DNA from: Deltaproteobacteria bacterium
GTDB taxonomy: Bacteria; Desulfobacterota_B; Binatia; UBA9968
Direction of reading: 5' to 3'
Assembly (NCBI GenBank): GCA_005879255.1
Contig: VBKY01000144.1
Coordinates: forward strand, 1-27,038
Length of the DNA stretch: 27,038 nucleotides
In this document: positions 15,536-18,838 of the stretch, piece after piece
Position numbering within the stretch: position 1 is the first letter of the stretch
Layout: each line of letters starts with the position of its first letter
The notes under the pieces: model-generated
Seen by the model: only the letters and a program-made list of their open reading frames with translations
What the model was told of the DNA's origin: nothing
Databases searched by the model: none
Made by a program: the position numbers and the translations under genes

Positions 15536-16726
15536 ATGAAACGCTCCGGCGTCGCAGATCTTCCGCTTCACGGCGGTCGCGTCCCGCAATGGCTTGCGGA
15601 ACGGATGACCAAACTGGGCACGGCCATCACCGAAGCCATCGTCCAAGACTACGGCGCTTCGGTCTTCCTCTCGCGCCTGAGCGATCCCTTCTGGTTCCAG
15701 GCGCTGGGCACGGTGATGGGAATGGACTGGCACTCTTCGGGCATCACCACATCCGTCATGGGAGCCCTGAAGCGAGGCCTAGCGCCACGCGCTGACGAGC
15801 TCGGCATTTACATTTGCGGCGGACGCGGCAGGTTCTCACGAAACACGCCGCAGGAATTGCGATCGATCGCCGAGCGTCGCGGCTTCGATGGCGAAGCCTT
15901 GGTCCACACCAGTAGGCTCACCGCGAGGGTCGACAACAATGCGATCGCCGACGGCTTTCAGATCTATCTCCATAGCTTCGTTGTGAGCTCGAACGGCGAG
16001 TGGGCCGTGGTACAGCAGGGATTGAACGATCGGAGCGGGATGGCTCGCCGCTACCACTGGCACTCCGCGTCGGTGCGCGACTTCGTCGCCGAACCACACA
16101 CCGGCATAGTCGGCGAGAACCAGGGCACGATCATGAATCTCGTGGACGCTCACGCGCAGCCCGCACAAACCGCCCTGCTCGACATCGCTCATGAAAAACC
16201 GGAGACCACGCTCCGCGCCGCGCGCTACCTCCGCATGCCGGACCATCATGAGGTCCGCGCCGAGAACATCGACCTGAAGCGTCTCGGAGCCGTGCTCGCC
16301 GTCGCGTACGAACGCGATCTTCACCAGTTCGCCGAACTGCTGCTTTTGGAGAATCTCGGTCCGCGCACTCTTCAGTCGCTTGCTTTGATTGCCGAAGTTG
16401 TCCACGGCGCACCGAGCCATTTCTCCGATCCCGCGCGTTTTTCCTTCGCACATGGCGGCAAGGATCGCCATCCATTTCCGATCCCGTTGAAGACTTACGA
16501 CGAAACTCTTAACTGCCTCCGGACCTCATTGGATAAAGCCAAGCTCGGCGACAAGGACAAACTCTACGGCTTCCGCCGCCTCGACCGCTTCGTTCACGCA
16601 GTCGAAACCCAGATCAAACCCGAAGCCAACTTCGATGCGGTCATTGCCCACGAAAACGCGATCTCTCGCTCGCTGGACGGCCGTTCTGTCTTCGACGACA
16701 CGCCCAAGCAGCTCTCCCTTTTCTAA
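15536..16726 (+). CDS. DUF763 family protein
   Basis: A 396-residue protein matching the DUF763 family: the N-terminus GVADLPLHGGRVPQWLAERM, RLSDPFWFQALGTVMGMDWHSSG, GRGRFSRNTPQELRSIAER, then a long central conserved part (ENQGTIMNLVDAH, RAARYLRMPDHHEV) and GLIAEVVHGAPSHFSDPARFSFAHGGKD-like text near residue 310. Function is unknown; members are found in archaea and scattered bacteria, often thermophiles. It has no signal peptide or membrane segment. A -10-like GATAAT at 15523-15528 lies 7 bases before the ATG and no Shine-Dalgarno sequence is seen, so a leaderless transcript is possible, although the 26-base gap after the previous gene equally allows read-through. The C-terminus ends QLSLF. 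Confidence 0.88.
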   Translation: MKRSGVADLPLHGGRVPQWLAERMTKLGTAITEAIVQDYGASVFLSRLSDPFWFQALGTVMGMDWHSSGITTSVMGALKRGLAPRADELGIYICGGRGRFSRNTPQELRSIAERRGFDGEALVHTSRLTARVDNNAIADGFQIYLHSFVVSSNGEWAVVQQGLNDRSGMARRYHWHSASVRDFVAEPHTGIVGENQGTIMNLVDAHAQPAQTALLDIAHEKPETTLRAARYLRMPDHHEVRAENIDLKRLGAVLAVAYERDLHQFAELLLLENLGPRTLQSLALIAEVVHGAPSHFSDPARFSFAHGGKDRHPFPIPLKTYDETLNCLRTSLDKAKLGDKDKLYGFRRLDRFVHAVETQIKPEANFDAVIAHENAISRSLDGRSVFDDTPKQLSLF

Positions 16727-17023
16727 TTTCCATACCATTGAGATTGAGCTCTACTCGGTTCGATGCGCTTCGGGCTATCTTTTGCCGGCGCGTTAACCAA
16801 GTTTCGAACTCTTGTCAGCCTCCGTAGCTCTAAGGACTGTCTTTGCGAAACGGATCGGCTAGTTATCGTGTCAAATCCATGACGGCGCATGTGTTAACGG
16901 CGTGACAAACAGGATGCCATTTTTCAGCATTCGGCTGCGCTACCGCACCTATTTGTGAATCGTTGTCGTGGCGGTAACCTATTTAATTGGCGCTTCTTAC
17001 CTCAGATTATCCCGAAACCCATG
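16727..17023. other. non-coding region holding enhancer-like dyads
   Basis: No ORF of note. It holds two dyads (16869-16907) upstream of the sigma-54 element and a weak IHF-like sequence (TAACCTATTTAAT, 16975-16987, two mismatches from the consensus) between them. No terminator was found after the DUF763 gene. Confidence 0.5.
16869..16907 (+). promoter_or_regulatory. two tandem TGTCA-N6-TGACA dyads, likely enhancer-binding-protein sites
   Basis: TGTCAAATCCATGACG (16869-16884) and TGTTAACGGCGTGACA (16892-16907) each match TGTCA-N6-TGACA with one mismatch. They start 23 bases apart, about two helical turns. The second also fits the TGT-N10-ACA form known for NifA-type sites. Their centres lie about 150 and 173 bases before the predicted sigma-54 start, the usual distance for bacterial enhancer-binding proteins. 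Confidence 0.55.
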
Positions 17024-17040
17024 TGGCATACCTGTTGCAA
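17024..17040 (+). promoter_or_regulatory. sigma-54 promoter (-24/-12)
   Basis: TGGCATACCTGTTGCAA carries GG at 17025-17026 and GC at 17037-17038 with exactly 10 bases between them, matching the TGGCAY-N5-TTGCW consensus. The expected transcript start is near 17050, just before the ribosome site of the 42-residue ORF. Confidence 0.7.
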
Positions 17041-17070
17041 TTTAGCTTTACGATCGAAGGGAGAAACCAG

Positions 17071-17199
17071 ATGGAAATAGTCGCAACAATCTCTAAGTCC
17101 AGATCTACTTCTCGGTTGGAAACGATTAACTGGCAATTTCTTGTTTTCTGGCTCACCTACTTGAGTATAATCTCGGGGTTTGTCGTTCGCTTTTTCTGA
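17071..17199 (+). CDS. 42-residue single-pass membrane microprotein
   Basis: A short ORF with a strong ribosome site AAGGGAG (17057-17063) seven bases before the ATG, and a sigma-54 promoter just upstream. The frame stays open to 16987, but the promoter and ribosome site point to 17071. The product has a charged N-terminal third (MEIVATISKSRSTSRLE) and a single hydrophobic helix (FLVFWLTYLSIISGFVVRFF), so it is probably an inner-membrane microprotein. No family is recognised. After the stop a weak hairpin (AGGGC/GCCT) precedes CTTTTT at 17216-17222. Given its size a chance ORF is possible, but three independent signals line up. Confidence 0.6.
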   Translation: MEIVATISKSRSTSRLETINWQFLVFWLTYLSIISGFVVRFF

Positions 17200-17789
17200 G
17201 TAGGGCTCTGCGGCCTCGCTTTTTCCATGCTTTCCCGTTAACTGGATTGATGTGAGCTTGTCGCCGGCTGATCTGCCGCCCTCTTCTGATCTTCTCGCTC
17301 AATCATCTCCTAACAAGAGTTCTTACAAACCGGGCTGGTGCGAACTAGGTATTCGACCATACGAAACTGGTTGAATGCACTCTGCCGTCTCGTTCTGTAA
17401 GATATTTTCTCTACTCCTCCGATACGAGTAATTGCGGATATGCGCGTAGTACTCGTACGGGAAATCCGCGGCTAATACAAAATGATCGAGCCGACGTCAT
17501 CGATCGTTTGTGCGATGACTGTGCCCGTCCTCGGTTTCTTTGTCGGCATGGAAAACCCAAATTCTTACTTTTGCTGATTGTTGTTTTATCCGTCACTCAA
17601 AAGAAATAGAATCTTGTTAACCCGCATCCAGATACTTTCGCTCGACCGCCGGGACCGTCACGGAAAATCGTCGCGAGCTAACGGATCGCCCTCAGACCTA
17701 GAGGGCAGACATATCGAATAGTTTGCCCGAGCTACAACTCGCCGGGCTTGATGCTGAAGTAAACCTCAGACTTCTTACCGAAGGGCTGG
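17200..17789. other. gene-free region with two inverted repeats
   Basis: Nearly 600 bases without a convincing gene. An inverted repeat TACGAGTA/TACTCGTA lies at 17423-17430 and 17450-17457, and GTCATCG/CGATGAC at 17496-17502 and 17513-17519. A GC-rich imperfect hairpin near 17725-17747 may end the minus-strand binding-protein transcript. A small structured RNA cannot be excluded. Confidence 0.4.
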
Positions 17790-18758
17790 TCACTTACCGC
17801 CAACTTTCTTGTCTACCTCGGCAACAAAGCGCATATCCATGAAGTCGTCCGGCTTTGCGCCTTTAGCGGCCGGGTCGTTCGCGGCAATATCAGTCAATAC
17901 CGCTTCCATTGCTTTCCGGCTGACGTAGGGCGGGAATTCCAAATACTCACGAAACTGATTGTAAGTATCCTCCTGAATCTCGACCTCTTTCACCTTGAGC
18001 TGATTCTGGATCATCTTCAGCCCCGCCGCTTTGTTGGTTTTGAAGATCTGAACTCCTTCAGCGTAAGAGCGAACCACGCGACGAACGATATCTTCGTTAG
18101 CCTTCACATATGCCCGGCTTGTGCCGACAGCGACTGAAACAAATTCCGGGCCTTCTTTGGCGATGTTCATCAGCTCGACAAATCCAGCTCTCTTCGCTCT
18201 CGCGTTGGTCGGCGGCGATACCACGCCGGCTTCGATCTGCCCTGCAGCCAATGCGGTGAAGATATTGGGAACTTCGAGCAGCGGCAGCAGTTGAACGTCG
18301 GCGGGCTTAAGGCCGGCGGAGCCGAGCGCGTAAAGAGCCGAGGTATGAGTCGACGATCCGATCCGCGTGATGCCGATTTTTTTGCCTCGCAATTCCGTGA
18401 TCTTCTTTATTTCCGGTTTTGCCATCAGCGAAAAGACCTGGCGGTTGGTCGCACCGGCGACGAGCACTATGTTCGCGCCCTTAAGAGTCGCCTGGGCTGC
18501 ATTGGAGCCGTCCATGAAAGAAAAGGCAATTTCTCCGGCAAGAATTGCTTGTATTCCCCTGGAGCTTGACTGAATATGGATCAGTTCGACGTCCAAACCA
18601 TTTTTCTTGAAGAGCCCTTCTTGTTTTGCCATGAACATGCCGCTCTGCGCGCCGGTCACGGCGGTCCAGTTGATGCGGACCGGTGTTTGAGCTGCCGCCG
18701 GCCTTGCAGAAGAAGCGACGAGAGCAATTAAACTTAAGACAAAGCTACCTGTTTTCAT
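17790..18758 (-). CDS. secreted NMT1/SsuA-like ABC solute-binding protein
   Basis: A 322-residue periplasmic binding protein of the nitrate/sulfonate/taurine/NMT1 type. The start at 18758 is fixed by GAGGAG (18767-18772 on the minus strand) eight bases upstream; a GTG at 18767 would overlap that site. The signal peptide is clear: MKTGSFVLSLIALVASS then ARPAAA with cleavage before QTPVRINW. The mature protein has GMFMAKQEGLFKKNGLDVELI, ILAGEIAFSFMDGSNAAQATLKGA, ITELRGKKIGITRIGSSTHTSALYAL, and FTALAAGQIEAGVVSPPTNARAKRAGF. Ligand is unknown. No permease or ATPase lies nearby. It is divergent from the dihydroxyphthalate-decarboxylase-like gene, with about 115 bases between. Confidence 0.9.
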   Translation of the reverse strand: MKTGSFVLSLIALVASSARPAAAQTPVRINWTAVTGAQSGMFMAKQEGLFKKNGLDVELIHIQSSSRGIQAILAGEIAFSFMDGSNAAQATLKGANIVLVAGATNRQVFSLMAKPEIKKITELRGKKIGITRIGSSTHTSALYALGSAGLKPADVQLLPLLEVPNIFTALAAGQIEAGVVSPPTNARAKRAGFVELMNIAKEGPEFVSVAVGTSRAYVKANEDIVRRVVRSYAEGVQIFKTNKAAGLKMIQNQLKVKEVEIQEDTYNQFREYLEFPPYVSRKAMEAVLTDIAANDPAAKGAKPDDFMDMRFVAEVDKKVGGK

Positions 18759-18838
18759 CAGTTTCACTCCTCAAGATTTTTGCGTCCACAGGCTATTAAC
18801 AAAGACGTCACAGCGAGTCAATTCATTCAATTCGGCAA

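Follow-up and report, generated by a model that had tools for sequence, protein, structure and literature searches.

Promoters read by RpoN (sigma-54) together with an enhancer-binding protein are the closest described systems for the locus analysed here, which lies between two genes in a window of 27,038 nucleotides (the whole stretch of DNA that was analysed). The locus shares with them the GG-N10-GC spacing of the promoter element and a cluster of half-sites 121-155 nt upstream. A more specific parallel comes from Aquincola, in which PEP-CTERM genes are under RpoN and PrsK-PrsR (PMC9850573); the likeness is that genes for the envelope or matrix depend on RpoN. The proteins of that system carry a sorting signal, whereas the 42-residue open reading frame (ORF) of the window has no PEP motif and no match in Pfam or NCBIfam. 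RpoN promoters of relatives have TTGCT followed mostly by C in the -12 element, in contrast to TTGCA followed by A in the window. Two tandem genes of the relative G026 (L238 and L239) resemble the window unit in the distance from the -12 element to the start codon (26-27 nt, compared with 31 nt in the window), in a single hydrophobic stretch, in size (43 versus 42 residues) and in the TGACA half-site cluster upstream, which is a triple TGACA in G026. They differ from it in that there is no sequence similarity and that their hydrophobic part is N-terminal and followed by a basic tail, the reverse of the order in the window ORF. Sigma-54 control is of a known kind; the 42-residue protein had no earlier counterpart in the databases searched. 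The open-licence literature searched yielded no account of a sigma-54 regulon rich in small proteins. We propose that the locus is probably a genuine sigma-54 unit of recent origin, whose ORF is translated into a lineage-restricted microprotein, a reading based on its sequence and that of its relatives.

Genomic context

The window has a G+C content of 55% and carries genes for solute-binding protein, hydantoinase, HpaB, DUF763, dnaN and dnaA, as assigned by scanning 20 window ORFs against protein families. About 1,060 bases without an ORF of at least 80 aa separate the DUF763 gene (15536-16726, + strand), the upstream neighbour of the unit, from an NMT1-like solute-binding-protein ORF (17790-18767, - strand), which is the next called ORF and lies on the opposite strand. 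No same-strand gene follows the 42-residue ORF, in agreement with a first-pass annotation of this DNA that saw no neighbouring gene for the promoter to serve.

DUF763 is 83-86% identical to its counterparts in metagenome-assembled genomes (MAGs) deposited as Deltaproteobacteria and up to 85% identical to those in Acidobacteria MAGs; these matches are almost equal, so placement in a lineage rests on dnaN identity and on dnaA-dnaN synteny. Among 97 relatives of MAG G001, dnaN is 80-87% identical in G012, G014, G015, G018, G020, G023, G026 and G027 (the eight close relatives). The block from dnaA to the solute-binding-protein gene is syntenic in these genomes, with single genes missing in some and the solute-binding-protein gene matched only in part in G018. 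Genes for RpoN were detected in 8/8 close relatives, in 3/3 further MAGs deposited as Deltaproteobacteria and in two Acidobacteria MAGs. Just past the stop of the solute-binding-protein gene, the segment at 17718-17778 shows 80-86% identity to parts of G027, G023 and G012 and, judged by eye, is possibly the remnant tail of another gene.

The -24/-12 element

The predicted sigma-54 promoter, TGGCATACCTGTTGCA, occupies 17024-17039 on the + strand, with GG at 17025-17026 and GC at 17037-17038. It is the sole exact match to TGGCAY-N5-TTGCW in the window and satisfies the GG-N10-GC spacing. The annotated 'textbook' -24/-12 element at 17024-17040 stands in its spacing, at 17024-17039; its -12 sequence, TTGCA, is off the lineage form. 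Transcription would presumably start at 17050 on the + strand, 12 nt after the -12 GC, a distance that we take from general sigma-54 promoter geometry. A scan of 16700-17850 found no sigma-70-like promoter.

The lineage form was drawn from the eight close relatives, in which TGGCAY-N5-TTGCT occurs 241 times, compared with 42 times for reversed-pattern controls. Sites were listed for G012, G015, G018, G026 and G027 (145/241) and 140 were fetched, none from G014, G020 or G023; the five left out were mostly at contig ends. Removal of duplicates and of sites near a locus end left 138 distinct sites, which a rough longest-ORF rule of gene calling divides into 94 with an ORF of at least 100 aa starting nearby, 10 inside such an ORF and 34 orphans. 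These sites were chosen by exact pattern and therefore cannot reveal how far real promoters deviate from it.

Measured against this set, the window promoter, if real, is atypical and perhaps weak. Its -12 element reads TTGCAA and does not match the lineage form, TTGCT then C; the base after the element is A at 4% of the 138 sites, where C is most common. The TTGCA version is not over-represented in the close relatives (15 versus 32 for the control), and 9/15 of its occurrences, two of them near-copies, fall between genes by the rough longest-ORF caller, an uncontrolled count. The flanks of the window site score -1.76, compared with 1.6 ± 2.5 at relative sites and -2.9 ± 3.1 at random places, such that 38% of random places score as high and 9% of sites as low. 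Against TGGCAY-N5-TTGCTC the window site agrees at 10/12 positions, as do three further window places, all of which lack GG or GC. With up to two mismatches allowed, the window contains 20 matches compared with 21.2 expected, which is chance level.

The unenriched TTGCA form and the near-random flanks, together with at least one exact TGGCAY-N5-TTGCW match in 4.7% of 150 window shuffles, favour an alternative, chance assembly: a match resembling a promoter, a handful of TGAC words and a short random ORF would have come together by coincidence in rapidly changing DNA between genes, where synteny breaks off between DUF763 and the solute-binding-protein gene. We regard such a coincidence as unlikely, though it is the likeliest of the rivals. 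By rough estimate, the -12 base and the flanks lower the odds of the site about 50-fold; in its favour, intergenic sites of this type in the lineage are real more often than not.

The 42-residue ORF

The ORF extends from an ATG to a TGA stop at 17071-17199 on the + strand, starting 31 nt after the -12 element. As annotated at first pass, it encodes one computed hydrophobic helix (residues about 22-40), and its highest 19-residue Kyte-Doolittle mean is 1.83 (residues 24-42). A Shine-Dalgarno-like sequence, GAAGGGAG, lies at 17056-17063 on the + strand, 7 nt before the ATG, and accounts for the AAGGGAG placed earlier at 17057-17063. A Shine-Dalgarno sequence and ATG opening an ORF of at least 42 codons within the first 60 nt arise in 0.4% of 1,500 shuffles, which argues against a chance assembly; we roughly estimate that the correctly placed Shine-Dalgarno ORF weighs about a hundredfold for the unit.

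Codon usage of the ORF is random-like, at -0.23 bits per codon; pieces of genes score 0.29 ± 0.17 and random ORFs -0.34 ± 0.16. This counts for chance assembly and also for a real promoter that makes a small RNA of about 170 nt in which the ORF is incidental. The small ORFs of relatives mostly score near zero on the same scale (-0.36 to 0.47, with the window value at the low end), so the codon-usage test is weak. A small RNA would also suit the weak terminator-like hairpin (17203-17216) that, with its T run, lies directly after the ORF at 17203-17224 on the + strand; terminator-like sites in the scanned region number 5 compared with 1.3 expected. However, the predicted fold of the whole transcript is no better than that of shuffles (z -0.04), the Rfam search gave no match, and the Shine-Dalgarno sequence and ATG are placed where relatives start small ORFs. 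We consider a small-RNA product improbable. Searches for tRNAs and repeats, like that of Rfam, returned nothing bearing on the unit.

Upstream half-sites

Three half-sites of a presumed activator precede the promoter on the + strand: TGTCA at 16869-16873, TGACG at 16880-16884 and TGACA at 16903-16907, within GTGACAAAC, which lie 155, 144 and 121 nt, respectively, before the -24 element. A degenerate arm, TGTTA (16892-16896, + strand), has one mismatch to TGTCA and was excluded from half-site tests. At first pass these elements had been described as two near-identical TGTCA-N6-TGACA dyads 23 bases apart. Their starts are indeed 23 nt apart, but neither is exact: 16869-16884 reads TGTCA-N6-TGACG and 16892-16907 reads TGTTA-N6-TGACA, one mismatch each to a perfect dyad. 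The accompanying enhancer-to-promoter distance of 150-173 bases is correct if measured to the presumed start near 17050 but not to the -24 element, from which the half-sites are separated by 121-155 nt.

Dyad matches with up to one mismatch number 3 in the whole window, compared with 0.63 expected, and 3/100 shuffles reach 3. A pair of any alike imperfect dyads within 300 nt upstream is unremarkable, occurring in 40% of 300 shuffles, which is consistent with chance assembly. This generic dyad test was given less weight only once the half-site motif had been derived from relatives without the window. Counted as TGAC[AG] half-sites, the locus has 3 pairs within 45 bp, an unusual level found in 0.6% of 1,343 overlapping window tiles (its own place included) and in 0.76% of 6,945 relative tiles. 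The cluster weighs for the unit about tenfold by rough estimate.

The motif itself emerged from a 5-mer clustering test upstream of relatives' sites that was run without the window sequence. Across 131 non-redundant stretches upstream of sites, no 5-mer clusters as strongly as TGACA, with 31 pairs at 5-45 bp compared with 2.5 in shuffled stretches, much of this count coming from a few sites, some from one small-protein family; words overlapping it, such as GACAA, rank behind. TGAC[AG] pairs upstream of relatives' sites number 86 compared with 13.7 in shuffles, and a pair is present at 26% of sites compared with 8% of shuffles. At least three pairs occur at 11/135 sites, compared with the 0.76% of relative tiles given above, and half-sites are most frequent 75-125 nt before the -24 element. 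The eight close relatives contain exact TGTCA-N6-TGACA palindromes at 18 places and the reversed pattern at 6. Half-site spacing is variable, and 'half-site cluster' is therefore a better term than 'dyad'. About three quarters of relative sites have no TGAC[AG] pair, so a TGACA-reading protein would be one activator among several. An expectation-maximization motif model, by which the window was no better than its own shuffles (21%), was discarded as it had drifted to base composition. We note that a second word, GTCGA, also pairs closely upstream of relatives' sigma-54 sites (22 pairs versus 4.3 in shuffles) and is perhaps the site of another activator.

The second dyad is also an exact TGT-N10-ACA (16892-16907), and, taken as an upstream activator sequence, it would make the ORF a NifA-controlled nitrogen-fixation gene. 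Upstream of lineage sites, TGT-N10-ACA is no commoner than in controls (2/135 stretches versus 3/136 control stretches), and it occurs once in 61 upstream regions, the window's own included, compared with twice in 59 control stretches. None of the 20 window ORFs that were scanned matches a family of nif type. NifA control is thus very improbable, and the nitrogen role offered earlier for the microprotein is not borne out.

With regard to the Aquincola parallel, G018 has a site with TGACA half-sites that precedes the gene of a PEP-CTERM-like protein, recognized by eye (L307). The PrsR model (TIGR02915) scores over its curated cut-off in 1/8 relatives; profile-match counts of 20-77 per genome in this search take in fragments and isolated domains, and 12/14 control genomes match the model too, so these counts do not equal numbers of enhancer-binding proteins.

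Conservation and weighing of the evidence

A protein search of 5.8 billion sequences found no homologue of the 42-residue ORF, and a genome-contig scan with a 49-aa query gave 593 pattern matches, none of which was confirmed as one. Searches of the 97 relatives and of 148 class genomes likewise gave no homologue; both returned the same three weak hits (E 0.011, 0.040 and 0.099). These were rejected on inspection because identity is 33-41% and none has a lineage-type site upstream, and also because two are parts of longer open frames (of 104 and 99 aa) and the third has an internal stop. When the intergenic DNA was compared with the 97 genomes, matches with E no higher than 0.1 turned up in 17/97, with at most four candidates scored per genome; among the matches listed, none includes the promoter or the half-sites, and a single one, 23 bases long, reaches the end of the ORF. 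Homology to the window stops at the 3' end of the solute-binding-protein gene in 7/7 relatives examined, and a -24/-12-like pattern is present in 0/7 flanks of that gene (two of them short, at 764 and 851 bases, at contig ends). Beside DUF763, homology stops at the stop codon in 4/5 relatives and earlier in the fifth.

Conservation of the ORF and promoter in relatives was a check set beforehand, and neither sequence is conserved in any relative searched, which favours chance assembly. The first-pass annotation had named missing conservation, or missing rpoN, as what would count against its reading; as ORF and promoter are unconserved, half of that objection applies, whereas rpoN is present throughout the close relatives. 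Against chance, the half-site cluster, the promoter and the Shine-Dalgarno ORF at 31 nt are three independent fits to rules that were derived from relatives without the window. By rough estimate, the half-site cluster and the placed Shine-Dalgarno ORF together outweigh the -12 base and flanks. The core of the first-pass proposal, a predicted sigma-54 promoter that has activator sites upstream and serves a single small ORF, remains the best explanation, as promoter type, half-sites and start spacing match the habits of relatives. The protein is probably lineage-restricted and young.

From the sequence elements and the architecture found across the lineage, we infer the following course for the sigma-54 unit. 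An enhancer-binding protein would bind the TGACA/TGACG half-sites 121-155 nt upstream and, by DNA looping, reach RpoN polymerase at 17024-17039, triggering a transcript that starts near 17050. The Shine-Dalgarno sequence in its leader would direct translation from 17071, and the 42-residue product would insert into the membrane as a single-helix microprotein. The unit would be free-standing, following a lineage habit of small-protein genes behind sigma-54 promoters. Its function may lean to the cell envelope, given the one helix and some of the genes found with TGACA clusters in relatives, namely the PEP-CTERM-like L307 and the lytic-transglycosylase-like L215, both named by eye. If correct, the unit would show stringent control of a young gene.

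Small proteins behind sigma-54 sites in relatives

At 16/34 orphan sites, an ORF of at least 40 codons with a Shine-Dalgarno sequence and ATG starts 20-45 nt after the -12 element (one of these, L226, runs into a contig end), compared with 0/1,167 random orphan positions, which come from eight loci and are non-independent. Starts of stop-terminated ORFs per 26-nt bin number 15 at 20-45 nt and 6 at 46-71 nt, with 0-3 in the other bins from -214 to 383, and antisense ORF starts are absent among those bins.

Several of these ORFs form families. Zinc-ribbon-like proteins, so named by eye from Cys/His positions, comprise a 49-aa family in four genomes (L229, L261, L276 and L291), which matches zf-C2HE below cut-off only, a 69-aa family in four genomes with TGAC[AG] clusters upstream (L233, L271, L285 and L301) and a related 66-74-aa family in three genomes (L272, L292 and L317). 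A 66-71-aa family in four relatives (L182, L244, L299 and L309) matches HTH_17 and an excisionase model above cut-offs. Other small ORFs behind sites encode membrane or secreted proteins that have no relative within the set. Among the small proteins are the 43-aa single-helix proteins L238 and L239 (G026:C14), which each have a separate sigma-54 site and a triple TGACA cluster. One of the two, searched against the 5.8 billion proteins, matched itself and two clusters at 81-84% identity; with so sparse a distribution there, the narrow distribution of the window ORF is not unusual.

These observations suggest, tentatively and as close to an even call, that the lineage runs a small-protein-rich sigma-54 regulon (zinc-ribbon-like, excisionase-like and single-helix membrane proteins), partly via an activator that reads TGACA clusters, and that the window gene is a newly born membrane-microprotein member of it. 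Several small families recur in four genomes each, so the regulon is testable without the window's own gene. Such a regulon in an uncultured lineage would also offer a way to find microproteins that homology searches miss, namely to inspect the DNA 20-71 nt downstream of a -24/-12 element of the lineage type, and this would work best with clustered TGACA half-sites upstream. Exact -24/-12 sites also occur back to back in G004 (C29, C48, C57, C105 and C152), diverging and about 140-235 bases apart.
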